Below, in pieces: positions 2,332 through 17,922 of a stretch of 64,000 bases of DNA. Source of the DNA: Alistipes sp. (GTDB lineage Bacteria; Bacteroidota; Bacteroidia; Bacteroidales; Rikenellaceae); NCBI GenBank assembly GCA_017938765.1, contig JAGBAX010000007.1, forward strand, positions 109,772 through 173,771, read 5' to 3'. Position 1 is the first letter of the stretch, and every line of letters starts with the position of its first letter. A model generated the notes under the pieces. The model worked only from the letters and a program-made list of their open reading frames with translations, was not told where the DNA came from and did not search any database. Position numbers and translations under genes: made by a program.

Positions 2332-3623
2332 TGTGGTAAAATCTCTGCTACGACAAATGTACTACCGCCAACAAAGAGCGTGTCGCTACTTGTCATCAGG
2401 CTCTTGGCTCTCTCTACAGCTGTAGCTACTGTCGGCTGGTACTCAAAGTCAAGGCCTAATGCTGAGGCTATAGCGGCGATACTCTCTGCGGTTGCGGCAC
2501 GGCGAGACTCTGCGCGGGTGAAGATGTAGTGCGCATCTTTTGGCATATAGCTGAGCATCTCAGTAATATTCTTATCCTCGCAGAAGCCCATTACGCAGTA
2601 GAGCTTACCCTCCTTGATACCCTCCAACTGCGCAGCCACAAGGCGAATGCCGTGAGGGTTGTGGGCAGTATCGCAGATAACTGTAGGGTCTGTAGATAGT
2701 CTCTGCCAACGACCTCGGAAGCCTGTAGTAAGGGTCGTATCTCGCAGACCCTCCACAAAGGCGCGACGGCTGATAGAGAGCGGCGTGTTCTCGTGCAGGT
2801 AGTCCGCAACGGCGCACACTGTAGCCACATTCTGGCGCTGATACTCTCCCAGTAGAGGTATGCGCAGGGTGTACTGCTGATTGTCGCGCGTGCGAATCAT
2901 ATCAAAGACCTGCACATCACCTTCGCGCTGCTGACGGTGGCACTCAAAGGCCTGCTCGGCATAGATAACCGTTGAGCGACAGTCGGCTGCAATATCCTCA
3001 ATAACAAGGTTATAGGCGCTATTCTTCTCGCCGACAACTACAGGAATTGACTTCTTGATAATACCGCCCTTCTCGCGCGCAATCTTAGGCAGTGAGTCGC
3101 CCAGCAAATCTGTATGCTCAAGGCCGACATTAGTAATTACGCTCACGGCAGGGATAACGATGTTTGTAGCGTCTAATCTACCACCCAGACCAGTCTCAAT
3201 AACGGCCACCTCAACATCATTCTGCGCGAAGTAGTCAAAGGCCATAGCCGTAGTCATCTCAAAGAATGAGAGCTCACACTCCTCCATATCCTTGCGGTGC
3301 TTGCTCACGAAGTTTACCACCTTCTGCTTAGATATCATCTCGCCATTTATGCGGATTCTCTCGCGGAAGTCTGTAAGGTGTGGTGAGGTATAGAGTCCCA
3401 CCTGATATCCCGCCTGTTGAAGCACCGAGGCGAGCATATTGCTTACCGAGCCCTTGCCATTTGTGCCAGCCACGTGGATAACAAAGTAGCTGCGCTGAGG
3501 GTTGCCTATCTTACGGCAAAACTCACTCACGCGCTCAAGGCCTGGCTTGTATGCTAATGCTCCATCCTGCTGAAAGGTCGGCAGAGAGGTAAAGAGGTAG
3601 TCAATGGTTTCTGTGTAGTTCAT
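2328..3623 (-). CDS. folC: Bifunctional folylpolyglutamate/dihydrofolate synthase
   Basis: The 431-residue cytoplasmic ligase adds glutamate to folates and makes dihydrofolate from dihydropteroate. It shows the Mur-ligase-type P-loop GTNGKGSVSNML (about residues 53-64), followed by LYTSPHLTDFRERI and the metal/ATP segment FDYFAQNDVEVAVIETGLGGRLDATN, all standard FolC motifs. The C-terminal domain contains CDTAHNPHG. It starts 3 bp after the lnt stop and overlaps radC by 4 bp, indicating translational coupling. Confidence 0.95.
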   Translation of the reverse strand: MNYTETIDYLFTSLPTFQQDGALAYKPGLERVSEFCRKIGNPQRSYFVIHVAGTNGKGSVSNMLASVLQQAGYQVGLYTSPHLTDFRERIRINGEMISKQKVVNFVSKHRKDMEECELSFFEMTTAMAFDYFAQNDVEVAVIETGLGGRLDATNIVIPAVSVITNVGLEHTDLLGDSLPKIAREKGGIIKKSIPVVVGEKNSAYNLVIEDIAADCRSTVIYAEQAFECHRQQREGDVQVFDMIRTRDNQQYTLRIPLLGEYQRQNVATVCAVADYLHENTPLSISRRAFVEGLRDTTLTTGFRGRWQRLSTDPTVICDTAHNPHGIRLVAAQLEGIKEGKLYCVMGFCEDKNITEMLSYMPKDAHYIFTRAESRRAATAESIAAIASALGLDFEYQPTVATAVERAKSLMTSSDTLFVGGSTFVVAEILPQ

Positions 3624-3626
3624 AGT

Positions 3627-5231
3627 CTAATCAAGGTAAAACTTTCTTTTGGATAGTATCGCTACGGTATAGAGCAGGCAGAGCAGGGCAATGTAGATTG
3701 ACAGACGGCCGATATAGTCTCCATAGCGAGTATATATTGTCTTGTGGTCGTTTAGGCGCAGGGTCGCACTTATCACACCTTGCTTGTCCCAACCAAGGCT
3801 CTCTATGCTGTCGCCACGCGAGTTGATAAAGCCCGATATGCCCGTATTGGCACTGCGGACAATATCTCTGCGGTGCTCAATGGCGCGTAGGCGGCAATAG
3901 GCGTAGAGGTACTTATACCCCCAAGTGTCGCCCCACCAACCGTCGTTGGAGATAACGCCGATAACTTGCGCTCCATTTCTGACAAACTCGCCCATATAGT
4001 CGCCATAAAGACCCTCATAGCATATTGCAGGGGCGATTTTGACACCATTATGCTCAAAAGGCTGGCAACTCTTTCCGATACCCAACTGACCCGATATGCC
4101 GCCAAGGTCTACACCAAAAATCTTATCCTTGCGGAACCACGCTGGCAGGGTCTCCACACCTATAACCAGCTTGCCCTTGTGGTGTACTGGCGTTACGGCA
4201 GGGTCACTACAGATGCCCAGCGCACTGTTGAAGATGTCGTAGTAGATGCCATTGCTTGAGAAGCGATTTGTGTCGCTTATGCGGCGATTGCCGTATGGGA
4301 CAATGCTCTGAGTACCAGCAATAACCATAGCCTCGCTCTTAGCAAAGCGCAACTGCGTGTTTATCGCCTGCACCACGCGTGTGGCGCTGATAAATCGCTC
4401 GTTAACTGTCGTGGCGAGAGATGTCTCTGGCATAAGGATAAAACTTGCCGACTCTACAGGTGCTTCAGATAGCAGTTTGACAAGGCTTTTCTGCTGCTGC
4501 GCCTCGCTGCCACTGAACTTCTCGTAGCAATCTACATTGGGCTGCACTGCCGCCACAGCAATCTGCTCTCGCGAGGTGTAACGCTCTGTTGTTGGGGCAT
4601 TTACGGCATAGAGTATAAGCGAAAAGAGTATCGGACAAACAACCTTTGCTGCTGCCATAATCCAACGACCCTTACCACCACTTTTAAGCGCCTCAAAAAT
4701 GAGTATGTTTGAGACCAACACCCATAGCGAGCCACCCAGTACGCCCGTATACTCATACCACTGCACCGCCCAAGTGTCAAAGGCAAAGGCGTTGCCCAGA
4801 GTCAGCCAAGGGAACGACATTGCTGGCGCCTTGATGTAGATATACTCGCAGGCTATCCACGCCGTTACGAGCAGGGTGTAGGCTATGCCCTTTGCCATTC
4901 GCTTGCTCACGATATGGAAGAGCATAAATGGTAGCAGAGCCCACCAACTACCCACTATCGTACCTGCAATAGTGCCTATCGCTGCGGCGTTCCACACCCA
5001 CCATATAGTGGATAGATGCCACAGTATGAATGTTAGCGAAGCCCATAGCGCAACCTTAACGCTGTCCCTGAATGAGCCAGAGTAGCTACTGCTCACCATA
5101 AGCAGCGGCACAAGGGCTACAAGCACTGTAAATCCGCTGACCGTCATCCACCCAAAGCCAAGCAGCAGGGCAGATAGCAGACAGAGTAGCAGTCGCTTTG
5201 TGGTTGATAGTTTGGTGGTGTTAGGTGTCAT
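3627..5231 (-). CDS. lnt: Apolipoprotein N-acyltransferase
   Basis: Inner-membrane enzyme (534 aa) that N-acylates the N-terminal cysteine of lipoproteins, the last step of lipoprotein maturation. Six to seven hydrophobic N-terminal segments are followed by a carbon-nitrogen hydrolase domain. The catalytic triad is visible: Glu in LMPETSLATT, Lys in HHKGKLVIGVE and Cys in PAICYEGLYGDYM. A last membrane helix precedes the lysine-rich C-terminus. Its substrates are plentiful here (many lipoproteins in this window). Tightly spaced between def (4 bp) and folC (3 bp). Confidence 0.93.
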   Translation of the reverse strand: MTPNTTKLSTTKRLLLCLLSALLLGFGWMTVSGFTVLVALVPLLMVSSSYSGSFRDSVKVALWASLTFILWHLSTIWWVWNAAAIGTIAGTIVGSWWALLPFMLFHIVSKRMAKGIAYTLLVTAWIACEYIYIKAPAMSFPWLTLGNAFAFDTWAVQWYEYTGVLGGSLWVLVSNILIFEALKSGGKGRWIMAAAKVVCPILFSLILYAVNAPTTERYTSREQIAVAAVQPNVDCYEKFSGSEAQQQKSLVKLLSEAPVESASFILMPETSLATTVNERFISATRVVQAINTQLRFAKSEAMVIAGTQSIVPYGNRRISDTNRFSSNGIYYDIFNSALGICSDPAVTPVHHKGKLVIGVETLPAWFRKDKIFGVDLGGISGQLGIGKSCQPFEHNGVKIAPAICYEGLYGDYMGEFVRNGAQVIGVISNDGWWGDTWGYKYLYAYCRLRAIEHRRDIVRSANTGISGFINSRGDSIESLGWDKQGVISATLRLNDHKTIYTRYGDYIGRLSIYIALLCLLYTVAILSKRKFYLD

Positions 5232-5235
5232 CCTG

Positions 5236-5781
5236 CTATTTGGTTTTGTAGGCGCAACGATACTTGCCCTTTGCGAGATTTAAGATTTTGCCCTTTAGCA
5301 GGTTACGACGCAATGGCGAGAGGTGGTCGGTAAATACCTTACCCTCAATATGGTCATACTCGTGCTGAATTACGCGAGCAGGATAGCCGTCAAACTCGTC
5401 GTCGTGCTCTACAAAGTTCTCGTCAAGGTAGCGCATACGAATCTTTACGGGGCGAGATACATTCTCATGTATGCCTGGCAGAGAGAGACAACCCTCCTCA
5501 AACAGACCTGTCTGCTCGCTACGCTCATAAATCTCTGGATTGACAAACACGCGGCGGAAGTTTGCCAACTCTGGCACCTCCTCTGCCCAAGGGGTGCAAT
5601 CAACGATAAAGAGTCGGATGTTCTTGCCAATCTGAGGGGCAGCAAGACCCACGCCCGACGCCTCATCAAGGGTCAGAAACATATCCTCAACGAGCTTCTT
5701 AAACTCTGGATACTCTGGTGTTATCTCTACCGATTGGTTACGCAGTACTGGCGAACCATAGATTACTATTGGGTATATCAT
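5236..5781 (-). CDS. def: Peptide deformylase
   Basis: Removes the formyl group from the initiator methionine of nascent proteins; a Fe/Zn enzyme of 181 aa. All three family motifs are present: GVGLAAPQ (43-50), EGCLS (96-100, Cys metal ligand) and HEYDH (140-144, two His ligands and the catalytic Glu). It opens the minus-strand run def-lnt-folC-radC. The upstream gap to ruvX is filled by a structured repeat rather than by a recognisable promoter. Confidence 0.96.
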   Translation of the reverse strand: MIYPIVIYGSPVLRNQSVEITPEYPEFKKLVEDMFLTLDEASGVGLAAPQIGKNIRLFIVDCTPWAEEVPELANFRRVFVNPEIYERSEQTGLFEEGCLSLPGIHENVSRPVKIRMRYLDENFVEHDDEFDGYPARVIQHEYDHIEGKVFTDHLSPLRRNLLKGKILNLAKGKYRCAYKTK

Positions 5782-6422: not shown

Positions 6423-7966
6423 TACGCCTTAATCTTCTTGTACAGAGGGCGGAATGATACAGCCTCGCCAATAATCTTCTCAAGGTCGGCAATAGCAACT
6501 CTCTGCTGCTCCATAGTGTCGCGGTGGCGGATAGTTACAGTGCCGCTCTCAAGGCTGTCGTGGTCTACAGTGACGCAGAATGGAGTACCTACAGCATCCT
6601 GACGGCGATAACGCTTACCGATAGAGTCCTTCTCGTCGTATGTTACAGTGTAGTCAAACTTCAGACTGTCAATAATCTGGCGCGCAAGCTCTGGAAGACC
6701 GTCCTTCTTAACAAGTGGCATAACGGCAACCTTTGTAGGAGCAAGACAAGCAGGTATGCGAAGCACTACGCGCTCCTCACCGTTCTCAAGCTTCTCTTCG
6801 CAGTATGCAGCAGACATAATCTGCAAGAACATACGGTCTACGCCGATAGAGGTCTCAACAACATAAGGAACATAGCTCTCGCCACGCTCTGGGTCAAAGT
6901 ACTGAATCTTCTTGCCAGAGTACTCCTGATGTCTACCAAGGTCAAAGTCGGTACGAGAGTGGATACCCTCAACCTCCTTGAAGCCAAATGGGAAGTTGAA
7001 CTCAATATCTGTTGCTGCATTAGCATAGTGAGCCAGCTTGTCGTGGTCGTGGAAGCGGTAGTTCTCATCGCCAAAGCCAAGTGCGCGGTGCCAAGCCATA
7101 CGGGTGTTCTTCCACTCATTCCACCACTGCATCTCTGTGCCTGGCTGTACAAAGAACTGCATCTCCATCTGCTCAAACTCGCGCATACGGAAGATAAACT
7201 GGCGAGCCACAATCTCATTACGGAACGCCTTACCAATCTGCGCAATACCAAATGGGAGCTTCATACGACCAGTCTTCTGCACATTAAGGAAGTTTACAAA
7301 GATACCCTGTGCAGTCTCTGGGCGGAGGTAGATTGTATTTGCACCCTCGGCAGTAGAGCCCATCTGGGTAGAGAACATAAGGTTGAACTGGCGAACATCT
7401 GTCCAGTTGCGAGTGCCAGAGATAGGGCATACAATCTCGCAGTCAAGGATAATCTGCTTCAGAGCCTCAAGGTCGTTCTTGTCCAACGCCTCAACAAAGC
7501 GAGCGTGAACAGCGTCGCGCTTAGCAGTAATCTCAAGTACGCGAGCGTTTGTTGCACGATACTGCGCCTCATCAAATGCCTCGCCAAAGCGCTTGCGAGC
7601 CTTGTCAATCTCCTTCTGAATCTTCTCGTCCTGCTTTGCCATCCAATCCTCAATAAGCACATCGGCACGATAGCGCTTCTTTGAGTCCTTGTTGTCAATC
7701 AGTGGGTCGTTAAATGCAGCTACGTGGCCAGAAGCCTCCCAAGTCTTTGGGTGCATAAAGATAGCCGCATCAATACCAACGATATTCTCGTGTAGCTTAA
7801 CCATTGAGTCCCACCAGTAACGCTTGATGTTGTTCTTCAGCTCAACACCATTCTGACCGTAGTCATAAACAGCGCCAAGACCGTCATAAATCTCGCTTGA
7901 AGGGAAAATAAAACCATACTCCTTGCAGTGAGCAATCAGTTTCTTAAAGAGTTCTTCCTGTGTCAT
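6422..7966 (-). CDS. glyS: Glycyl-tRNA synthetase, single-chain class II type
   Basis: The 514-residue enzyme charges tRNA-Gly. It is of the alpha2 (eukaryote-like) type, not the alpha/beta heterotetramer: N-terminal RGFIFPSSEIYDGLGAVYDYGQNG-like segment, a class II core with LRPETAQGIFVNF (motif 2 region), FRNEIVARQFIFRMREFEQMEMQFF, and motif 3 near EVVERIEGIH/ETSIGVDRMFL. The C-terminal anticodon-binding domain ends in SFRPLYKKIKA. It heads the minus-strand unit glyS-ruvX. Confidence 0.96.
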   Translation of the reverse strand: MTQEELFKKLIAHCKEYGFIFPSSEIYDGLGAVYDYGQNGVELKNNIKRYWWDSMVKLHENIVGIDAAIFMHPKTWEASGHVAAFNDPLIDNKDSKKRYRADVLIEDWMAKQDEKIQKEIDKARKRFGEAFDEAQYRATNARVLEITAKRDAVHARFVEALDKNDLEALKQIILDCEIVCPISGTRNWTDVRQFNLMFSTQMGSTAEGANTIYLRPETAQGIFVNFLNVQKTGRMKLPFGIAQIGKAFRNEIVARQFIFRMREFEQMEMQFFVQPGTEMQWWNEWKNTRMAWHRALGFGDENYRFHDHDKLAHYANAATDIEFNFPFGFKEVEGIHSRTDFDLGRHQEYSGKKIQYFDPERGESYVPYVVETSIGVDRMFLQIMSAAYCEEKLENGEERVVLRIPACLAPTKVAVMPLVKKDGLPELARQIIDSLKFDYTVTYDEKDSIGKRYRRQDAVGTPFCVTVDHDSLESGTVTIRHRDTMEQQRVAIADLEKIIGEAVSFRPLYKKIKA

Positions 7967-8133: not shown

Positions 8134-9582
8134 ATGAAGAGATTTAATCACTTACTGATACTGTTCTTTTTGGCGCTTTTTACGGCGTGTACAACTGGTG
8201 AAAATGAGCCAGAAATTGTCCTAACATCACTGCGTGTAGAGCCTCGCAGTATTACCCTTGAGGTGGGCGGAACAAAGAGTCTTAAGGCTGTATATGAGCC
8301 TGAAATAGAGGATATTCTATTCACTTGGTCATCAACAGATGTAGATGTTGCAAGGGTTACGGATGAGGGTGTTGTTACAGCACTCTCTGAGGGCTCTGCG
8401 CAGATTATATGCAAGTATGGAGAAGGCGCATCTGCCCGCTGTGCTGTGCAGGTTGTTCCAAAGAGTGTGCAAAAGCCTACACAGATTAATGTTGAGTCGC
8501 TTGCTGCGCCACTGAGCAAGAGTATGATTTTCTCCTCTCGCCAGCTCAGATATCCCGGAACGGTTATGCAGTGTTTTGACTTCTACGATAGCAGTCAGAA
8601 TGGCTATATATACTTTACGCAGTGTGGTGCTGATGCTACTACGGGTAATAAGTGGATTGTTGTTGCCAGTCGCGTAAAGAGAGGTGTTTATGGCGATAGT
8701 ACGCATAGTGGCGAGGCTATGTATCTACGCTGGTTTGGTCATGGAACAATAATGTGCATTGAGCATAGCCAGACAGACGGTAAGGACTATATCTGGGTCA
8801 ATACAAATGGTACACTCTCTGGTACAAGCTACACAAACCAGAAGACCGTTTCGCGCATCCTCTATGAGCCTGATAAGACCTATGAACATCGTGCGGGCGA
8901 GCACTTCTACCTTGATTCATACCGCGATAGTAGTGGTAAGACTTGGAGCAATCTGCTTGATTTTCAAGTAAATATAGACTTTAAGGCTCGCCGAATGCTT
9001 GCCGTCTGTCGCACAAGTGGCGTTAGGCATCTTATCGTCTACGACCTTGATAAAGTCCTTGCGCTCAAGGAGCAGGATGTTACTCTTACTCGCACTTGGG
9101 GTGGTGAGGGCGATACTGGCACAACGAAACACACCACGACGGAGACTATCAAGGCGCGCAATGTCGGCTCTTTGACCCCGATAGGCTCGTTTACCCTTAA
9201 GATACCATCTGGCACGACTGACTTCTCACAGACCCACTCAACATCATATCAGGGCCACGCCATTGCGGGCGATTATATCTACTGGTACGAGGGTAATGCG
9301 TATGAGAAAAAGTCGGGTAGTGGCATCTATGATAACTCGCAGGCATACCTTGAGGTCTTTGACTATACGGGCAAGCGCATAGTGCCCCGCACAAGGGTCG
9401 CTGCAGTCTCAGATATAGAGAATCTTACGGCACTTGTAAACCTCAACACAAACCTCTATTGCGAGGCTGAGGGTGTGCAGGTTAAGGGCGATAAACTCTA
9501 TATAGGAATCGTTACCCATAAGGCAGGAATGACCTCAAAGAATCGCGTGGCAACCATTCTGGAGTATACTATCTTCAAGTAG
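8134..9582 (+). CDS. Lipoprotein with N-terminal Big_2 (Ig-like) domain and an unknown propeller-like C-terminal region
   Basis: 482 aa. A signal peptide ends in the lipobox LFTAC with Cys19, so it is probably outer-membrane anchored. Residues ~30-110 form a bacterial Ig-like group 2 domain (RVEPRSITLEVGGTKSL, then WSSTDVDVARVTDEGVVTALSEG). The remaining ~370 residues alternate beta-rich blocks with aromatic and Asp/Gly turns (YPGTVMQCFDFYDS, YLRWFGHGTIMCIEHS, QVNIDFKARRMLAV, YLEVFDYTGKRI) suggesting a propeller. The layout weakly recalls helveticin-J-like proteins, from memory and unconfirmed. Function unknown. It precedes the RT unit on the same strand but that unit has its own promoter. 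Confidence 0.75.
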   Translation: MKRFNHLLILFFLALFTACTTGENEPEIVLTSLRVEPRSITLEVGGTKSLKAVYEPEIEDILFTWSSTDVDVARVTDEGVVTALSEGSAQIICKYGEGASARCAVQVVPKSVQKPTQINVESLAAPLSKSMIFSSRQLRYPGTVMQCFDFYDSSQNGYIYFTQCGADATTGNKWIVVASRVKRGVYGDSTHSGEAMYLRWFGHGTIMCIEHSQTDGKDYIWVNTNGTLSGTSYTNQKTVSRILYEPDKTYEHRAGEHFYLDSYRDSSGKTWSNLLDFQVNIDFKARRMLAVCRTSGVRHLIVYDLDKVLALKEQDVTLTRTWGGEGDTGTTKHTTTETIKARNVGSLTPIGSFTLKIPSGTTDFSQTHSTSYQGHAIAGDYIYWYEGNAYEKKSGSGIYDNSQAYLEVFDYTGKRIVPRTRVAAVSDIENLTALVNLNTNLYCEAEGVQVKGDKLYIGIVTHKAGMTSKNRVATILEYTIFK

Positions 9583-9605: not shown

Positions 9606-9636
9606 TTGCAAAAGTTGATAAATTTTACTATGTTTG
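9606..9636 (+). promoter_or_regulatory. Promoter of the RT unit
   Basis: TTG (9606-9608), a 20-base spacer and TATGTTTG (9629-9636) fit the Bacteroidetes consensus. The predicted start at about 9643 is ~20 bp before the ATG at 9662, making the two paralogs, the RNA region and the RT a separate transcription unit. Confidence 0.65.
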
Positions 9637-9661
9637 TCAGACGATAGTTAGAATTATTGAT

Positions 9662-10069
9662 ATGGTAACATCTACCAAGGGTTTGACAGCAGAGCAGTGT
9701 GCTGACTACTTTAGGGGTATTCTTGCAAAGGAGTTTCCTGAGTGTAGTATCCGCGAGAATGTATCTGTAGCGGAACTTGTTGGGAATGTAGATGCCACTT
9801 TCCGCCTCTATAAGACCCGTCCATATCAGGCGTATAAGGCGGAGTGGGGTGCTCCATACACCTTTGTGGTTGCTCGTGAGGGTAGGGTTGTGGCTGTAAT
9901 TATGCTGGCCGAGAAGTGGAAGCAGTACAATAATGTCAAGTACCTTATCTCAAAGATGTATATGAAAAAGCTCGGCATTCCATATATCCCGTTTTATACA
10001 GAGATGAAAAACGATATAGGCTATGTTGTAGAGCGTTTGGCAAAGCATATTAATTTACAAAAACAATAG
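9662..10069 (+). CDS. Small protein of unknown function, paralog 1 of the RT unit
   Basis: 135 aa, soluble, no signal peptide. It shares a full-length domain with the next gene: G(L/M)(T/S)xEQC near the start, then EFPxxSxREN, VxxLVG, a block around RPxQxYKxEWGxPYxFV, a strand with RVVAxI, and a C-terminal segment with K(L/I)xIPxxxFYxxxxNxIxYVVxRxAK. The order (two strands, a Tyr/Lys-rich helix, then GIPxxxFY) resembles the topology of DUF2726/PD-(D/E)XK-type nucleases, but the acidic catalytic residues are not in place, so this is only an inference. I do not recognise the family. It lies 5 bp upstream of paralog 2. Confidence 0.75.
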   Translation: MVTSTKGLTAEQCADYFRGILAKEFPECSIRENVSVAELVGNVDATFRLYKTRPYQAYKAEWGAPYTFVVAREGRVVAVIMLAEKWKQYNNVKYLISKMYMKKLGIPYIPFYTEMKNDIGYVVERLAKHINLQKQ

Positions 10070-10074
10070 AGATT

Positions 10075-10638
10075 ATGGGAACATTACTTATTATTGTGGG
10101 CTTGGTGCTCGCTCTTGTCGTAGCTATTTTTGGCAAGAAAAAGAGTGCTGCAACACCTTCTGCTCCAGCGCAACCAACACAGCCGGTTGCACCTATAGAG
10201 CCTACGCCAGAGTTTCCGCCAGTGAATCTGAAGGCGGTTCACCTTGCTAATTCAACTAACGGTATGAGTTACGAGCAGTGTCTGCTCTACTTTAAGGATG
10301 TGCTTACAACGGAGTTCCCAGATTACAGCTTCCGTGAAAATGTGGCGGTGCAGGATTTGGTTGGTCCTCAGGGTGCATCGTTTAAGCTCTACGACACTCG
10401 TCCAGTGCAGGAATATAAGCCGGAGTGGGGTCTGCCATATAGCTTTGTTGCTTATAAGGGTACAAGGGTCGTGGCAGCGATACTTGTTGTCCGCACAAAG
10501 AAGGACTACAAAAAAGTAAAACTCCTTGTCTCTAAGGCATTTATGGATAAGCTGAATATTCCACTAATGGTCTTCTATGCTGATATTCCGAACAGAATAG
10601 AGTATGTTGTAACCCGCGTGGCAAAGGCATTGAAGTAA
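10075..10638 (+). CDS. Membrane-anchored small protein of unknown function, paralog 2 of the RT unit
   Basis: 187 aa. Residues 3-20 (TLLIIVGLVLALVVAIFG) are a membrane segment, followed by basic residues and a Pro/Ala-rich linker (to about residue 50) and then the same domain as paralog 1 (from GMSYEQCLLYFKD to the end). The topology suggests an inner-membrane anchor with the domain in the cytoplasm, since KKK follows the helix. The pair, one soluble and one anchored, probably arose by tandem duplication. Only 5 bp separate the genes. Function unknown; the same operon contains the RT. Confidence 0.75.
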   Translation: MGTLLIIVGLVLALVVAIFGKKKSAATPSAPAQPTQPVAPIEPTPEFPPVNLKAVHLANSTNGMSYEQCLLYFKDVLTTEFPDYSFRENVAVQDLVGPQGASFKLYDTRPVQEYKPEWGLPYSFVAYKGTRVVAAILVVRTKKDYKKVKLLVSKAFMDKLNIPLMVFYADIPNRIEYVVTRVAKALK

Positions 10639-10640
10639 TA

Positions 10641-10779
10641 GAGTAAGGGGGATGCACTCTGTTGTGCCTGTGGCGGATGCAGCATAGCTCAAACTGGGTC
10701 TTGCAGGCGACCGAGCTATGTACCATCTGGTGATAGGCGAAATTCGCCTATTCAAAATAACTCCCCCTTTCTTTTTTTT
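10641..10779 (+). ncRNA. Predicted multi-hairpin RNA directly upstream of the RT
   Basis: Between paralog 2 and the RT there is no gene but a dense fold. A closing stem pairs AAGGGGGA (10645-10652) with TCCCCCTT (10762-10769). Inside are GCAC/GTGC (10654-10667), a long hairpin CATAGCTC/GAGCTATG (10683-10690 with 10713-10720) extended by GGTC/GACC (10697-10700 with 10709-10712), and ATAGGCGAA/TTCGCCTAT (10733-10751). A T-rich tract (10768-10779) follows the closing stem and ends 2 bases before the RT ATG, so the 3' end looks like an intrinsic terminator. It could be a template or guide RNA of the RT, or an attenuator controlling it. Structure seen by eye; function inferred. Confidence 0.6.
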
Positions 10780-10781
10780 CT

Positions 10782-11990
10782 ATGGATAGCATTATTGAGC
10801 AACTTGCCTCGCAGAGGGTGTGGGAGGAGTACCTTGCCTATCGTCTGAAGAGGGGTCGTCTAAACTGGAACGAGTTTTGTGATACGGATACTTTTGTGGA
10901 GACAGAGCGGTATCTGCCCTTGGTGAGTAGCATCCTTGAGGGAGGCTCACTCTCTATTCCCTATAAGCGCGAGATAAACAAGATGGGAACGAATAAAAAG
11001 CGCGTTGTCTACTCTTTTAACGATGAGGAGATGACGTTGCTCAAGGTTATGTCCCACCTGCTCTATAAGTATGACGAGACTTTTGCTCCTAACTGCTACG
11101 CTTTTCGCCGAGGTGTTCGCGTGGCGGATGCAGTTACAAGGCTCTACCGAAAGGTGCGACATAGAGGTCTGTGGGCGTATAAACTCGATATCCACAACTA
11201 CTTCAACTCTATATCTATACCGATTCTTCTGCCACAGCTCAAGCAACTGCTTGCCGATGACAAGCCTCTGTATGACTTCTTTGAACGCCTGCTCTCGGAT
11301 GGTCGTTGTCTTACAAATGAGCAGGTTGTTGTGGAGCAGAGGGGTGTTATGGCTGGTGTACCAGTGGCTTCATTCCTTGCAAATGTATATCTTAACGAGG
11401 TGGACCACTACTTTGCTAATCAGGGAGTTATCTACGCTCGCTACTCAGACGATATAATACTTTTTGCTTCTGATAGTAGTCAGTTGCAGAGCCACAGGGC
11501 AAAGATTCTTGAGTTTCTTGATAAGTACCACCTTGAGGTTAATCCGACAAAGGAGAGAATCTACTCGCCCGACAAGCCGTATGAGTTTCTGGGATTTAGG
11601 TGTGGACAAAATGGTATTGACATCTCCCACTCTGGCGTAGAGAAGATGAAGGGTAAGATTCGCCGTAAGATGCGCGCCCTGCTACGCTGGAAAGAGCGCA
11701 ACGGCCACTCTGCCGAGCGCGCTATGACGGCTATGATAAGGTATTTTAACCGCAAGTTTTTTGATACTAACCTTGACGGTATGCTCACTTGGTCGCGCTG
11801 GTACTTCCCCGTAATCACGACTACTGAAGCTCTAAAAGAGATAGACCATTTTATGCAACAATCTATCCGCGTGCTATCTACAGGTCGCCACAATAAATCT
11901 AACTACCGCATAACCTACGAAAAAATCAAGGCTCTGGGCTATAGAAGCCTTGTGCACGAGTTTTATAAACAGAAAGAGCAGCGAGAGTAA
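10782..11990 (+). CDS. Reverse transcriptase, class not recognised
   Basis: 402 aa with a complete RT palm: KRVVYSFNDEEM (73-84), first catalytic Asp in YKLDIHNYFNSI (Asp136), QRGVMAGVPVASFLANVYL (186-204), the catalytic YARYSDDIILFA with YSDD at 221-224, EVNPTKE, and FLGF (269-272). The C-terminal ~120 residues are basic and helical (KGKIRRKMRALLRWKERNG, then WSRWYFPVITT). There is no group II maturase/HNH part, no DGR-type QGS/SQ motif 4, and no retron VTG. It may belong to the unknown-group or group-II-like RTs, some of which are phage-defence systems with an adjacent ncRNA. The upstream RNA fold and two paralogs support such a unit but do not prove it. Confidence 0.9.
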   Translation: MDSIIEQLASQRVWEEYLAYRLKRGRLNWNEFCDTDTFVETERYLPLVSSILEGGSLSIPYKREINKMGTNKKRVVYSFNDEEMTLLKVMSHLLYKYDETFAPNCYAFRRGVRVADAVTRLYRKVRHRGLWAYKLDIHNYFNSISIPILLPQLKQLLADDKPLYDFFERLLSDGRCLTNEQVVVEQRGVMAGVPVASFLANVYLNEVDHYFANQGVIYARYSDDIILFASDSSQLQSHRAKILEFLDKYHLEVNPTKERIYSPDKPYEFLGFRCGQNGIDISHSGVEKMKGKIRRKMRALLRWKERNGHSAERAMTAMIRYFNRKFFDTNLDGMLTWSRWYFPVITTTEALKEIDHFMQQSIRVLSTGRHNKSNYRITYEKIKALGYRSLVHEFYKQKEQRE

Positions 11991-12080: not shown

Positions 12081-14903
12081 ATGTTTGACAAGTTTTCTGC
12101 AAGACATATCGGCACTACAGATGACAATCAGCTCTCTGAGATGCTGGAGGTTATCGGTGTAAGTAGCGTTGAGGAGCTTATCGGAGAGGTTATTCCCGAC
12201 AATATCCGCCTTGAGCAGCCACTGGAGCTTAGTGAGGCGATGAGCGAGTATGAGTTCCGCGAGCATATCACACAGCTTGCCGACCTTAACGAGCCTTACC
12301 GCTCATTTATCGGTATGGGATACTATCCAAATGCTGTCAGCGCAGCCATTATGCGCAATGTTTTTGAGAATCCTGCGTGGTATACATCCTACACCCCTTA
12401 TCAGGCTGAGATTTCGCAGGGTCGCCTTGAGGCACTGCTCAACTTCCAGACCGCTATCTGCTCCCTTACGGGCATGGAGATTGCAAACTGCTCACTACTT
12501 GACCAAGGTACAGCTGTTGCCGAGGCTATGCTGATGATGTACTCCCTGCGCTCACGCGAGGCGGTCAAGGAGGGCAGAAATCAGATTTTTGTAGATGAAA
12601 ATATCTTCCCACATACCCTTGATGTGCTTCTGACTCGTTCAGAGCCATTCGGCATTGAGCTTATCATAGATAACTTTGCAGAGTATACATTCACTGGCAA
12701 GGAGTTCGGTGCTATACTTCAGTACCCTGCTGCTAATGGCGAGATTCGTGACTATAATGCCTTTGTCGCTGCGGCACACGCTGCGGGCGCGCTGGTGGCT
12801 GTAGATGCAGACCTGCTCTCGCTTGCCCTGCTGACCCCTCCAGCCGAGTGGGGTGCAGATATCGCTGTGGGTACTACCCAGCGTCTGGGTTGCCCTATGG
12901 GCTTTGGTGGCCCATCGGCGGGCTATATGGCTACTCGCGAGGCTTACAAGCGTAATATGCCTGGTAGAATTATCGGCGTCTCTGTAGACCGTCTGGGTAA
13001 TAAGGCTCTGCGTATGTCGCTCCAGATGCGTGAGCAACATATTAAGCGCGAGCGCGCAACATCAAACATCTGTACAGCCTCTGCCCTTATGGCCTCTATC
13101 GTGGGCTTCCACTGCGTATATAACGGTGCTGAGGGTCTTGCTCGCGCAGCGATGACGGCTCATACCGCCGCTGTGTCGGTTGCCAAAAACCTTGAGGATA
13201 TGGGTTATGAGCTTGTCTGCGACACCTTCTTTGATACTATTGAGGTTGTTGCCGATGCGGCTGTCGTTGAGTCTGTGGCCCTTGAGAACGGTATTAACTT
13301 CTACTATCCTACTGAGGACCGCGTGCGTATAGCCTTTGACGAGGTTACAACTATTGAGGAGATTGTCTCCGTAATTGGCATATTCGCTACTGCTGCGGGT
13401 GTGGATATGGGCGAGATGATGATTGCCGCTAACCATAACATCCCTGTAGAGCTGCGCCGAACAACGCCTCTGCTTGCCGAGCCAGTGTTCAACCGCTACC
13501 GCTCTGAGAGCGACCTTATGCGATATATCAAGCGCCTTGAGCTGAGAGATATCTCACTTGCCAACTCAATGATTTCATTAGGTAGCTGTACTATGAAGCT
13601 CAATGCGGCAGCTATTATGCAGCCACTATCTCTTGCGGGCTTCCAGAATGTACACCCATTTGCTCCTGCCGACCAAGCGGAGGGCTACCTGCAGCTTATT
13701 GAGGAGCTTGAGCGCGACCTTGCTACTATCACAGGCTTTGAGGCCTGCTCACTGCAGCCAAATTCGGGTGCTGCGGGCGAGTATGCGGGACTTATGGTTA
13801 TCCGCGCATACCACCAGAGTCGCGGTCAGGGATACCGTAATGTGGTGCTTATCCCAGCCTCTGCACACGGCACAAATCCAGCCTCGGCAGCTATGGCGGG
13901 CATGAAGATAGTTACTGTCGCTTGCGATGCTAACGGAAATATTGATGTTGAGGATTTGAAGGCCAAGGCGGCTCAGCACTCTGCCGAGCTGTGCGCACTG
14001 ATGGTTACATACCCATCTACTCACGGTGTGTTTGAGAGCCGTATTCGCGAGATTGTAGACGCTGTTCACGATGCGGGTGGCGAGGTATATATGGATGGCG
14101 CAAATATGAATGCACAGGTGGGTCTAACTAATCCAGGCTTTATCGGTGCTGATGTCTGCCACCTTAACCTGCATAAGACCTTTGCAATGCCTCACGGCGG
14201 TGGTGGTCCAGGCGTAGGTCCAATCTGCTGTGCAAAGCACTTGGCGCCATTCTTGCCGTCACACTCTGTCGTGGCTACAGGTGGCGAGCAGGGCATAACT
14301 GCCGTATCTTCAGCACCTTGGGGCTCGGCTATGCTTCTGCCAATAACCTATGGATATATCAAGATGCTTGGCGAGGAGGGTCTGCGCGCTGCTACGCAGA
14401 TGGCAATTGTCAATGCTAACTATATGGCTTCGGCAATCAAGGAGGAGTTCCGCACATACTACTCTGGCGAGACTGGCCGCGTGGCACACGAGATGATTCT
14501 TGACCTTACACACTTCAAGCGCGAGTATGGCGTAGATTGTGGCGATATAGCCCACCGCCTTATGGACTACGGCTTCCACGCACCAACCCTCTCATTCCCA
14601 GTGCATGAGACCCTTATGGTTGAGCCTACCGAGAGTGAGCCTAAAGAGGAGATGGACCGCTTTATTGAGGCTCTTGTCGCTATCAAGCGCGAGTGCGAGG
14701 CTATCGCGGGCGAGGCAGATAATGTCGTTGCTAATGCCCCTCATACCGCTGCCGAGATTGCGGGCGAGTGGAACCACCCATACTCCCGCCAGCAGGCTGT
14801 GCTGCCACTTGCGTGGGTCGGCGTGTCCAAGTTCTTCCCTTATGTCTCAAAGATTGATAACGGCTACGGCGATAGAAACCTTGTGGCAGTAAATAGGGAT
14901 TAA
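12081..14903 (+). CDS. gcvP: Glycine dehydrogenase (decarboxylating), P-protein
   Basis: 940 aa, the fused single-chain form of the glycine cleavage P-protein. It decarboxylates glycine with PLP and passes the aminomethyl group to the lipoyl H-protein. N-terminal FxxRHIGTTDDNQLSEML-type start, YTPYQAEISQGRLEALLNFQT, and in the second half the PLP lysine in HLNLHKTFAMPHGGGGPGVG. YPSTHGVFE and EVYMDGANMNAQVGLTNPG are further family blocks. The other components (gcvT, gcvH, lpd) are not in the window. Confidence 0.97.
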   Translation: MFDKFSARHIGTTDDNQLSEMLEVIGVSSVEELIGEVIPDNIRLEQPLELSEAMSEYEFREHITQLADLNEPYRSFIGMGYYPNAVSAAIMRNVFENPAWYTSYTPYQAEISQGRLEALLNFQTAICSLTGMEIANCSLLDQGTAVAEAMLMMYSLRSREAVKEGRNQIFVDENIFPHTLDVLLTRSEPFGIELIIDNFAEYTFTGKEFGAILQYPAANGEIRDYNAFVAAAHAAGALVAVDADLLSLALLTPPAEWGADIAVGTTQRLGCPMGFGGPSAGYMATREAYKRNMPGRIIGVSVDRLGNKALRMSLQMREQHIKRERATSNICTASALMASIVGFHCVYNGAEGLARAAMTAHTAAVSVAKNLEDMGYELVCDTFFDTIEVVADAAVVESVALENGINFYYPTEDRVRIAFDEVTTIEEIVSVIGIFATAAGVDMGEMMIAANHNIPVELRRTTPLLAEPVFNRYRSESDLMRYIKRLELRDISLANSMISLGSCTMKLNAAAIMQPLSLAGFQNVHPFAPADQAEGYLQLIEELERDLATITGFEACSLQPNSGAAGEYAGLMVIRAYHQSRGQGYRNVVLIPASAHGTNPASAAMAGMKIVTVACDANGNIDVEDLKAKAAQHSAELCALMVTYPSTHGVFESRIREIVDAVHDAGGEVYMDGANMNAQVGLTNPGFIGADVCHLNLHKTFAMPHGGGGPGVGPICCAKHLAPFLPSHSVVATGGEQGITAVSSAPWGSAMLLPITYGYIKMLGEEGLRAATQMAIVNANYMASAIKEEFRTYYSGETGRVAHEMILDLTHFKREYGVDCGDIAHRLMDYGFHAPTLSFPVHETLMVEPTESEPKEEMDRFIEALVAIKRECEAIAGEADNVVANAPHTAAEIAGEWNHPYSRQQAVLPLAWVGVSKFFPYVSKIDNGYGDRNLVAVNRD

Positions 14904-17631: not shown

Positions 17632-17922
17632 TTATAAACCTTTTGCCGTCTCCAAAGCCCTCTCCAAGTCTGCCACCGAAGAGACCTCAATAACCTCTGT
17701 TCCCAACTTTATAAAACCGCTGATGGTCGGTTTGTTCTCTACCTCTATCAAATCCACAACATCAACTTGCAGCACTTCGGCAATGCGCGATAAAGTGCTT
17801 AGTGTTGGATTTCCATTCAATGTTGTAGACAAATTTACAGGGTGAACATCAAGCATTTCGGCAACCTTTGCCAATGTCCAACCCTTCTGCTTTACGATTT
17901 CTTTTACTCTCAGTTTTGCCAT
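17632..17922 (-). CDS. XRE-family helix-turn-helix regulator
   Basis: 96 aa. The N-terminal half is an HTH_3 domain: VKEIVKQKGWTLAKVAEML then DVHPVNLSTTLNGNPTLSTLSRIAEVLQVDVVDLIE. The C-terminal tail (SGFIKLGTEVIEVSSVADLERALE) is short and may dimerise. It is transcribed divergently from the gene at 18083, so it probably controls that shared intergenic region and perhaps the integrase side, where a palindrome with the same CCATGTAA half-site occurs (25382-25399). Confidence 0.9.
   Translation of the reverse strand: MAKLRVKEIVKQKGWTLAKVAEMLDVHPVNLSTTLNGNPTLSTLSRIAEVLQVDVVDLIEVENKPTISGFIKLGTEVIEVSSVADLERALETAKGL

Follow-up and report, generated by a model that had tools for sequence, protein, structure and literature searches.

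What kind of reverse transcriptase (RT) system is encoded at positions 9606-11990 of the 64,000-nucleotide stretch of Alistipes sp. DNA analysed here (contig JAGBAX010000007.1; hereafter the window), and what might its RNA and small proteins do? On the + strand the unit is ordered as a 135-residue open reading frame (ORF), a 187-residue ORF, a 143-base gap and a 402-residue RT. An earlier account made from the DNA letters, referred to below as the sequence-only reading, had described it as an undescribed-looking unit of two paralogous small proteins, a folded RNA and an RT that were thought to work together. We find that the unit is an RT of the type found in defence-associated RT (DRT) systems together with a non-coding RNA and a membrane-linked companion protein, and is not a new category: the RT (unknown-group, or UG, clade UG26), the RNA (family RT-5) and the companion of related loci (family RTasCOG2852) are already catalogued. 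The grouping itself stands, as RT, RNA and companion recur as a unit; among 44 UG26-like loci, the RNA adjoins the RT in 41 and a companion lies upstream of the RT in 31 (iterative profile search of locus ORFs).

The RT is a full-length member of the UG26 clade

10782-11990, + strand: UG26 reverse transcriptase, 402 amino acids, assigned by PADLOC profile, with YSDD at 11442-11453

The RT matches the PADLOC profile RT_UG26 (PDLC03764) at 532.4 bits (1.4e-160), with residues 3-399 aligned to profile positions 2-397. It is thus a full-length member of a clade that PADLOC lists as a candidate DRT, and no feature that sets it apart from that clade was found. The next specific PADLOC groups are UG27 (115 bits, 8.5e-34), UG17 (108.6 bits, 8.3e-32) and Drt9 (94 bits, 2.8e-27). 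Pfam identifies RVT_1, and no NCBIfam model scores above its cut-off on the RT, retron_St85 reaching 53.4 bits against a cut-off of 235. Placement of the RT among the unknown-group enzymes, which the sequence-only reading had proposed as a check, therefore comes out in favour of UG/DRT RTs as its nearest kin by profile, and not retrons. All 39 homologues in our RT alignment are UG26 at <=1e-50, and no other PADLOC profile reaches 1e-50. This alignment omits five loci whose RTs are frameshifted, truncated, split or cut (L018, L029, L030, L031 and L068); they were assigned as UG26-like by tblastn, PADLOC (L029) or a genome profile survey (L068). The catalytic motif is intact, as had been claimed: YSDD occupies residues 221-224, and Y221, D223 and D224 are invariant in the 39 rows.

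Compared with solved structures, the 39-row profile matched RTs of group II introns and their relatives first; later matches included 9ioa (3.6e-23), DRT2 (1.8e-14) and, weakly, telomerase (1.6e-06). We treat 9ioa as DRT9, since 9NLV and 9NLX, both named as DRT9 (PMC12483538), fall in its sequence group. On account of this profile and structure kinship, UG26 may belong among the RNA-templated 'Class 2' RTs.

The RNA is a conserved, closed and pseudoknotted fold

10640-10779, + strand: structured RNA (RT-5 match at 10662-10764, extended by the closing stem and U-tract)
10645-10652, + strand: 5' strand of the closing stem, AAGGGGGA, from fold and consensus (helices 1-2)
10654-10665, + strand: stem-loop 1, from consensus pairing (helix 3)
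10666-10671, + strand: 5' strand of the pseudoknot, GCCUGU, pairing with 10703-10708
10675-10728, + strand: stem-loop 2, with the 3' strand of the pseudoknot, GCAGGC (10703-10708), in its loop
10732-10752, + strand: stem-loop 3, immediately 5' of the candidate template
10762-10779, + strand: 3' strand of the closing stem (10762-10769), then a T-rich tract

The sequence-only reading had proposed that about 130 bases ahead of the RT fold as a closed multi-hairpin RNA, and three lines of evidence bear this out. The interval 10636-10781 folds at -58.3 kcal/mol as compared to a shuffled mean of -38.5 (z -5.35), with 0 of 200 shuffles as low. It matches Rfam RT-5 (RF03026) at 87.6 bits against a curated cut-off of 45.7, covering model positions 1-104 of 104 with 103 bases; to this whole-model match we add the closing stem, the pseudoknot (which Rfam may already note) and the U-tract. 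Its stems also covary. An initial alignment of 28 homologous intervals yielded a consensus fold with two-sided changes at 21 of 28 pairs, from which the covariance model R1 was built. In the enlarged 40-row alignment, which does not include the RNA of L067 and to which the pair counts and the repeat counts given below refer, 34 pairs are formed in 94.6% of cells and 31 of them show two-sided changes, whereas slid partners pair in 42-51%. The single-sequence fold differs from the consensus in the region of stem-loop 1, where it instead pairs 10654-10657 with 10664-10667.

The pseudoknot between 10666-10671 and 10703-10708 is paired in 99.2% of cells, with two-sided changes at 6 of 6 pairs, as compared to 21-48% pairing in slid controls. 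This covariation is not built in, because the pseudoknot was absent from the model that aligned the rows. One of five measures speaks against it, as further pair types do not exceed shuffles (8 versus 7.2; 198 of 500 as high). Taken together, these data show that the RNA is a conserved closed fold containing a pseudoknot. RT-5 RNA was reportedly first described by Weinberg and colleagues in 2017.

The 3' end of the RNA is T-rich (>=6 T in 8 bases) in 35 of the 40 RNAs, as compared to 12% of random stretches from the same loci, and in the window the tract ends 2 bases before the RT ATG, exactly as had been noted from the sequence. A simple terminator scan that allows loops of 3-8 only listed none in the window, the RNA 3' end included. 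At one locus in which no companion was found (L026), the RNA match starts at 7836, shortly after a TTGACA-17-TACAAT site whose last base is 7822; a promoter-like site just 5' of the RNA fits a stand-alone transcript.

The RNA is seldom separated from UG26 RTs

Model R1 was searched against 49 sources, comprising the 44 UG26-like loci and five loci with RTs classed as more distant by a weak partial RT match alone (L033-L035, L056 and L057). It produced 40 matches, each in a UG26-like locus, and none in the five others; a further RNA, in L067, was found with filters off (31.4 bits, 8.9e-05). Among the 44, the RNA was not found in L024 (550 nucleotides visible upstream), L029 (truncated RT) or L068 (RT at a contig edge). 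Of 393 genomes of the order, 11 have UG26; 7 of these 11, and no other genome, have RT-5, with 6 scoring over the curated cut-off. Model R1 also finds the RNA in four UG26 genomes missed by the Rfam search (L063, L064, L065 and L067). Loci L063-L067, a divergent branch of UG26, have no detected companion, and their RNA keeps the fold despite scoring below the RT-5 cut-off; L064, L065 and L067 have flanking genes of the same kinds. Within the family of the window, for which four genomes are listed, no other genome has a UG26 match.

Two loci depart from the usual spacing. In L059 (5944-8997), the RNA and companion lie about 3 kb from the RT with two ORFs of 330 and 512 residues between them, the result of an insertion or a misassembly. 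In L060 (6868-7553), the RT-5 RNA and the UG26 RT are separated by an extra ORF of 158 residues, whose hydrophobic N-terminus resembles that of a lipoprotein, and the companion is upstream of the RNA.

Carriage of the unit by phages or plasmids was considered and rejected on the following searches. A plasmid collection (at 1e-20) and a phage collection (at 1e-15) held no match to the unit, and viral contigs gave two weak partial RT matches (31% and 42% identity) without the RNA and no match to companion copy 2. The available passages of PMC10504277, however, report UG26 RTs from cold-seep viruses, which speaks against a strictly non-viral habit.

The companion is frequent, separable and usually single

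9662-10069, + strand: companion copy 1, 135 amino acids, without a strongly hydrophobic stretch
10075-10638, + strand: companion copy 2, 187 amino acids, with an N-terminal hydrophobic anchor, a linker and a diverged companion domain

As the sequence-only reading had recognized, the two small proteins of the window are paralogous (50% identity over 130 residues, E 2e-46), one being soluble and the other membrane-anchored: the 19-residue Kyte-Doolittle maximum is 2.95 at residue 1 in copy 2 and 1.21 in copy 1. The pair is not, as had been supposed, a defining feature of the system. Two copies are seen in the window only, and 30 of the 31 companion-bearing loci have a single one, which rules out a conserved two-protein partnership; a second copy is possible in L014, because its contig begins inside the companion. 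In the closest relative (L001, 74% RT identity), one copy is present in the 1.4 kb visible upstream of the RT. The shared domain of copy 1 has a mean identity of 47% to the companions of 20 close loci as compared to 37% for copy 2, and copy 1 is the higher in 20 of 20. Because copy 1 is the more similar to companions that occur singly and L001 has one copy, we read the pair as a probable recent tandem duplication in which copy 2 has diverged.

Loci with a companion occur in Bacteroidota and Bacillota and in one Actinomycetota assembly. Thirteen loci have no detected companion; L024, L063 and L068 are truncated too far for a verdict, L029 lacks the RNA too, and the RNA is kept in the other nine (L020, L022, L026, L027, L031 and L064-L067), from which it follows that the companion is separable. 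In a tree built from the 39 UG26 RTs and a single UG17 RT as outgroup, the companion-less loci require three changes, the root being unsure because the outgroup branch is very long and joins at L025. Homologous RTs had been expected to keep both RNA and small proteins if the unit was real; this expectation fails for the companion, whereas the RNA is seldom separable and its stems covary. Distances between RTs correlate with those between companions (r 0.93 for 28 loci, 0.80 within the 19 closest loci; none of 2000 permutations reached such a value), a correlation that is uncorrected for species relatedness among loci whose close relatives share flanking genes. It was computed for 28 of the 31 companion loci (L014, L018 and L030 omitted).

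With what protein family is the companion affiliated? Twenty-four of 32 companions match PADLOC RTasCOG2852 at <=0.1 (best 3.1e-08), and the Bacillota-type companions of L019 and L030 match this profile (PDLC03793) over positions 1-166 of 167, whereas the window's own two copies do not match it. A survey of 198 genomes of the order with the profile returned no match and its controls were silent too, and it is hence uninformative; in the 7 genomes behind the loci, the profile matched in 2, both at the companion. An hhalign comparison of the companion with 19 DUF559 (COG2852) proteins of the order is co-linear and weak (P 0.029, probability 1.7%; P 0.25 for a control with an unrelated RT profile). 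In the register of this weak alignment, 30 of 32 companions carry M where the nuclease has its E. The first D of the nuclease falls beyond the stretch that aligned and was positioned by eye; the companions have S, T or N there in 30 cases and D in 2. Because these positions are replaced, the companion can with caution be read as a nuclease fold without catalysis, its acidic residues apparently lost. A profile search of PDB with the companion found nothing below E 0.43, and Pfam gave scattered weak matches only across all 32. Many companions may instead be associated with the membrane by an amphipathic N-terminus: of 30 examined (all but copy 1 and the truncated companion of L014), 19 have a hydrophobic moment higher than in about 95% of shuffles, a level that copy 2 and 10 further companions do not reach.

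A candidate template follows stem-loop 3

10752-10763, + strand: candidate template, comprising A-B, UCAAAAUAAC (10752-10761), and A', UC (10762-10763)

In DRT10, whose RT belongs to UG17, tandem-repeat complementary DNA (cDNA) is made by copying a segment A-B located just 3' of a hairpin, followed by re-annealing at a second copy of A, termed A' (according to available passages of PMC12632851). The UG26 RNAs have a comparable layout: a hairpin generally ends just 5' of UUCAAA or UCAAA, about 4-8 bases follow, and UC is then reached at the closing stem, although in several rows the simple search used here overlooked or misplaced the hairpin. In the window, the first U of the template closes stem-loop 3 in the predicted fold. 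A match of >=2 nucleotides between A and A' at a spacing of 8-13 is present in 36 of 40 RNAs (shuffled mean 28.8, p 0.003) and one of >=3 in 23 of 40 (shuffled mean 15.9, p 0.0115), p-values that are optimistic because the sequences are related. The period is 10 in 24 of the 36 RNAs with a match. We consider the segment 3' of stem-loop 3 a likely template site; slippage onto A' is possible, and the predicted cDNA repeat would be GTTATTTTGA.

A UG17, DRT10-type locus served as a yardstick (L104; UG17 439.7 bits, RTasSLATT 1.1e-37). This locus (3121-5291), from the same phylum, has the order RT, RNA-like fold, SLATT and a repeat period of 12. The gap between RT and SLATT folds as a closed domain (z -4.11) in which CAUC-GUCGUGGA-CAUC, the closing stem and a U-tract come in this order after the last large hairpin, with a predicted 3-pair hairpin inside the loop. 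Because 10.7% of shuffles reach such a repeat, it serves as an illustration of the layout and is no proof on its own.

Several further observations count against repeat synthesis by slippage. The A/A' match of the window is 2 nucleotides only, and the A' bases lie at the top of the closing stem, where they are paired in the predicted fold. Identity of A and A' is partly expected, because pairing also conserves UC and pyrimidines are abundant in the 3' strand. The 2-nucleotide match fails in 4 of 40 RNAs (L017, L026, L027 and L060), and where A varies (L011, L025, L026 and L027) A' does not fully follow. Model R1 does not match any of three UG17-type loci, L104 included.

Genomic context of the unit

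9606-9636, + strand: promoter-like site TTG-N20-TATGTTTG, 25 bases before the first ORF

The source genome (2.1 Mb, 87% complete) contained this copy alone in an RT search, and the nearest RT relatives are in Alistipes-like Rikenellaceae assemblies. The unit is flanked by a 482-residue gene with a Big_2 domain (8134-9582) and a 940-residue gene (12081-14903), which we take to encode glycine dehydrogenase. A promoter-like sequence had been claimed at 9606-9636, and this interval is an exact match to TTG-N20-TANNTTTG, presumably the Bacteroidales promoter type; it is a candidate site by sequence. Across both strands of the window, TTG-N19-21-TANNTTTG matches 15 times as compared to a mean of 1.9 and a maximum of 5 in 30 mononucleotide shuffles, perhaps a Bacteroidales-type promoter set. 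When eight neighbouring ORFs of the window were compared with PADLOC, seven had no match and the eighth was a helix-turn-helix protein, which does not favour a defence setting. This small protein (17632-17922) weakly matches several PADLOC candidate-defence profiles, the best at 1.5e-06.

Comparison with known RT systems

The unit resembles DRT10 in combining an RT, a short closed multi-hairpin RNA and a small membrane-linked companion, and in having a template-like segment directly 3' of a hairpin. We conclude that it is not DRT10, because both a UG17 RT and a SLATT partner were looked for and neither is present: the RT scores 108.6 bits with UG17 as compared to 532.4 with UG26, and RTasSLATT, a profile that does match in L104, is unmatched by the companions and the eight neighbouring ORFs. 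The two also differ in that A' here overlaps the closing stem. DRT10 primes from a C-terminal Ser or Tyr; in the UG26 RTs, Y379 near the C-terminus is invariant in the 39-row alignment. DRT9 (UG28) and DRT2 (UG2) are likewise ncRNA-templated UG RTs, and are profile and solved-structure kin of the window RT. Among open-licence papers, we found one naming UG26 RTs, PMC10504277, whose available passages describe their roles as 'remaining unknown', and none on RT-5/RF03026, on COG2852 with a reverse transcriptase, or on their combination. The available passages of the DRT3 preprint PMC13174585 contain nothing on UG26, Rfam or COG2852.

Proposed mechanism and alternatives

How might such a unit work? 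We favour a defence-type UG/DRT system consisting of the UG26 RT, the RT-5 RNA and the small companion, a proposal whose chances, with the working described here, we judge to be evenly balanced. The RNA, whose closed pseudoknotted form is evident from covariation, would bind the RT. By analogy with DRT10 and telomerase and from the layout of the RNA, the RT would copy the short segment 3' of stem-loop 3 and stop at that hairpin, whereupon the new DNA end would slip back onto A' and the cycle would repeat, generating single-stranded tandem repeats (GTTATTTTGA)n. The companion, a putative COG2852/DUF559-like domain without acidic residues that is probably tethered by its hydrophobic or amphipathic N-terminus, may serve at the membrane as a sensor or effector that binds the DNA or the complex of RT and RNA, a role also proposed for SLATT in DRT10 in the available passages of PMC12632851. 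Soluble and anchored copies in the window could perhaps split binding and effector roles. The outcome would be protection from phage, probably by abortive infection; according to the same passages, every UG enzyme characterised by experiment has been implicated in defence against phage. A narrower form of the proposal is tentative and on balance doubtful. In it, a telomerase-like RT would use the pseudoknotted RNA as template to make a repeat of about 10-12 nucleotides with a conserved TTTGA core, and the reader of this DNA would be a membrane-tethered protein descended from a nuclease and no longer catalytic. Several companion findings weigh against the favoured proposal as a whole: none was found in 10 of the 41 loci where it would be visible, its correlation with the RT may partly reflect shared ancestry, and the hhalign link to the nuclease fold is weak.

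The rival that comes closest to this proposal retains an RNA template and places it elsewhere, as in DRT2 and DRT9. The RNA would then specify another segment and product (longer, homopolymer-like or unique), and UCAAA would be a site of contact with the RT or within the structure. In its favour, UUCAAA is nearly invariant in the 28 aligned RNAs, unlike the template loops of DRT10, which are poorly conserved according to the passages of PMC12632851, and the DRT2 RNA is likewise pseudoknotted (available passages of PMC12039810). However, inside the closing stem, neither a long template of low conservation between conserved trinucleotides, as in DRT2, nor a conserved poly-U template loop, as in DRT9, is apparent in the 28-RNA alignment, and we regard the idea as rather unlikely. 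It is less probable still that the RNA has no template function and acts as a protein cofactor or as a cis-regulator of RT expression, the RT making untemplated DNA. Such synthesis is attributed to Class 1 DRTs in available passages of PMC13174585, and the T-rich 3' end of the RNA often stands directly before the RT start. Set against this are the promoter-like site just 5' of the RNA in L026, as for a stand-alone RNA, the 3 kb between RNA and RT in L059, and the profile kinship of the RT with the RNA-templated DRT9, DRT2 and UG17, though other UG groups are among its kin too.

A similarly low probability attaches to a domesticated RT with a housekeeping role outside defence, for example in DNA repair or stress signalling. 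Neighbouring genes are mostly housekeeping-like by ORF reading, flanking genes of shared kinds recur in the three divergent loci L064, L065 and L067, and the plasmid, phage and viral searches recovered nothing beyond the two partial RT matches. A domesticated gene would, however, be at odds with the patchy presence of the unit (11 of 393 genomes of the order, and no other in the four listed for the window's family), with its spread over Bacteroidota, Bacillota and one Actinomycetota assembly, and with the UG26 RTs of cold-seep viruses. A retron or diversity-generating retroelement is scarcely credible. The RT does adjoin a structured RNA; the retron reading was nevertheless ruled out by the sub-threshold retron_St85 score and by the RNA, which is RT-5, there being no retron RNA at gathering level (parts of diversity-generating retroelements were not searched for).

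Implications

The analysis brings together, as one testable system, three database entries that had stood as orphans: the RT clade UG26, the RNA RT-5 and the family of companions. It adds to them a pseudoknot supported by covariation and the exact bases that are predicted to be copied. If the narrower, telomerase-like reading is true, the companion would be a DNA-sensing membrane effector of a kind that we have not seen described for DRT systems. Should RTs outside UG17 also prove to make tandem repeats, repeat addition of the telomerase kind would be more widespread among these bacterial RTs, as the available passages of PMC12632851 suggest.

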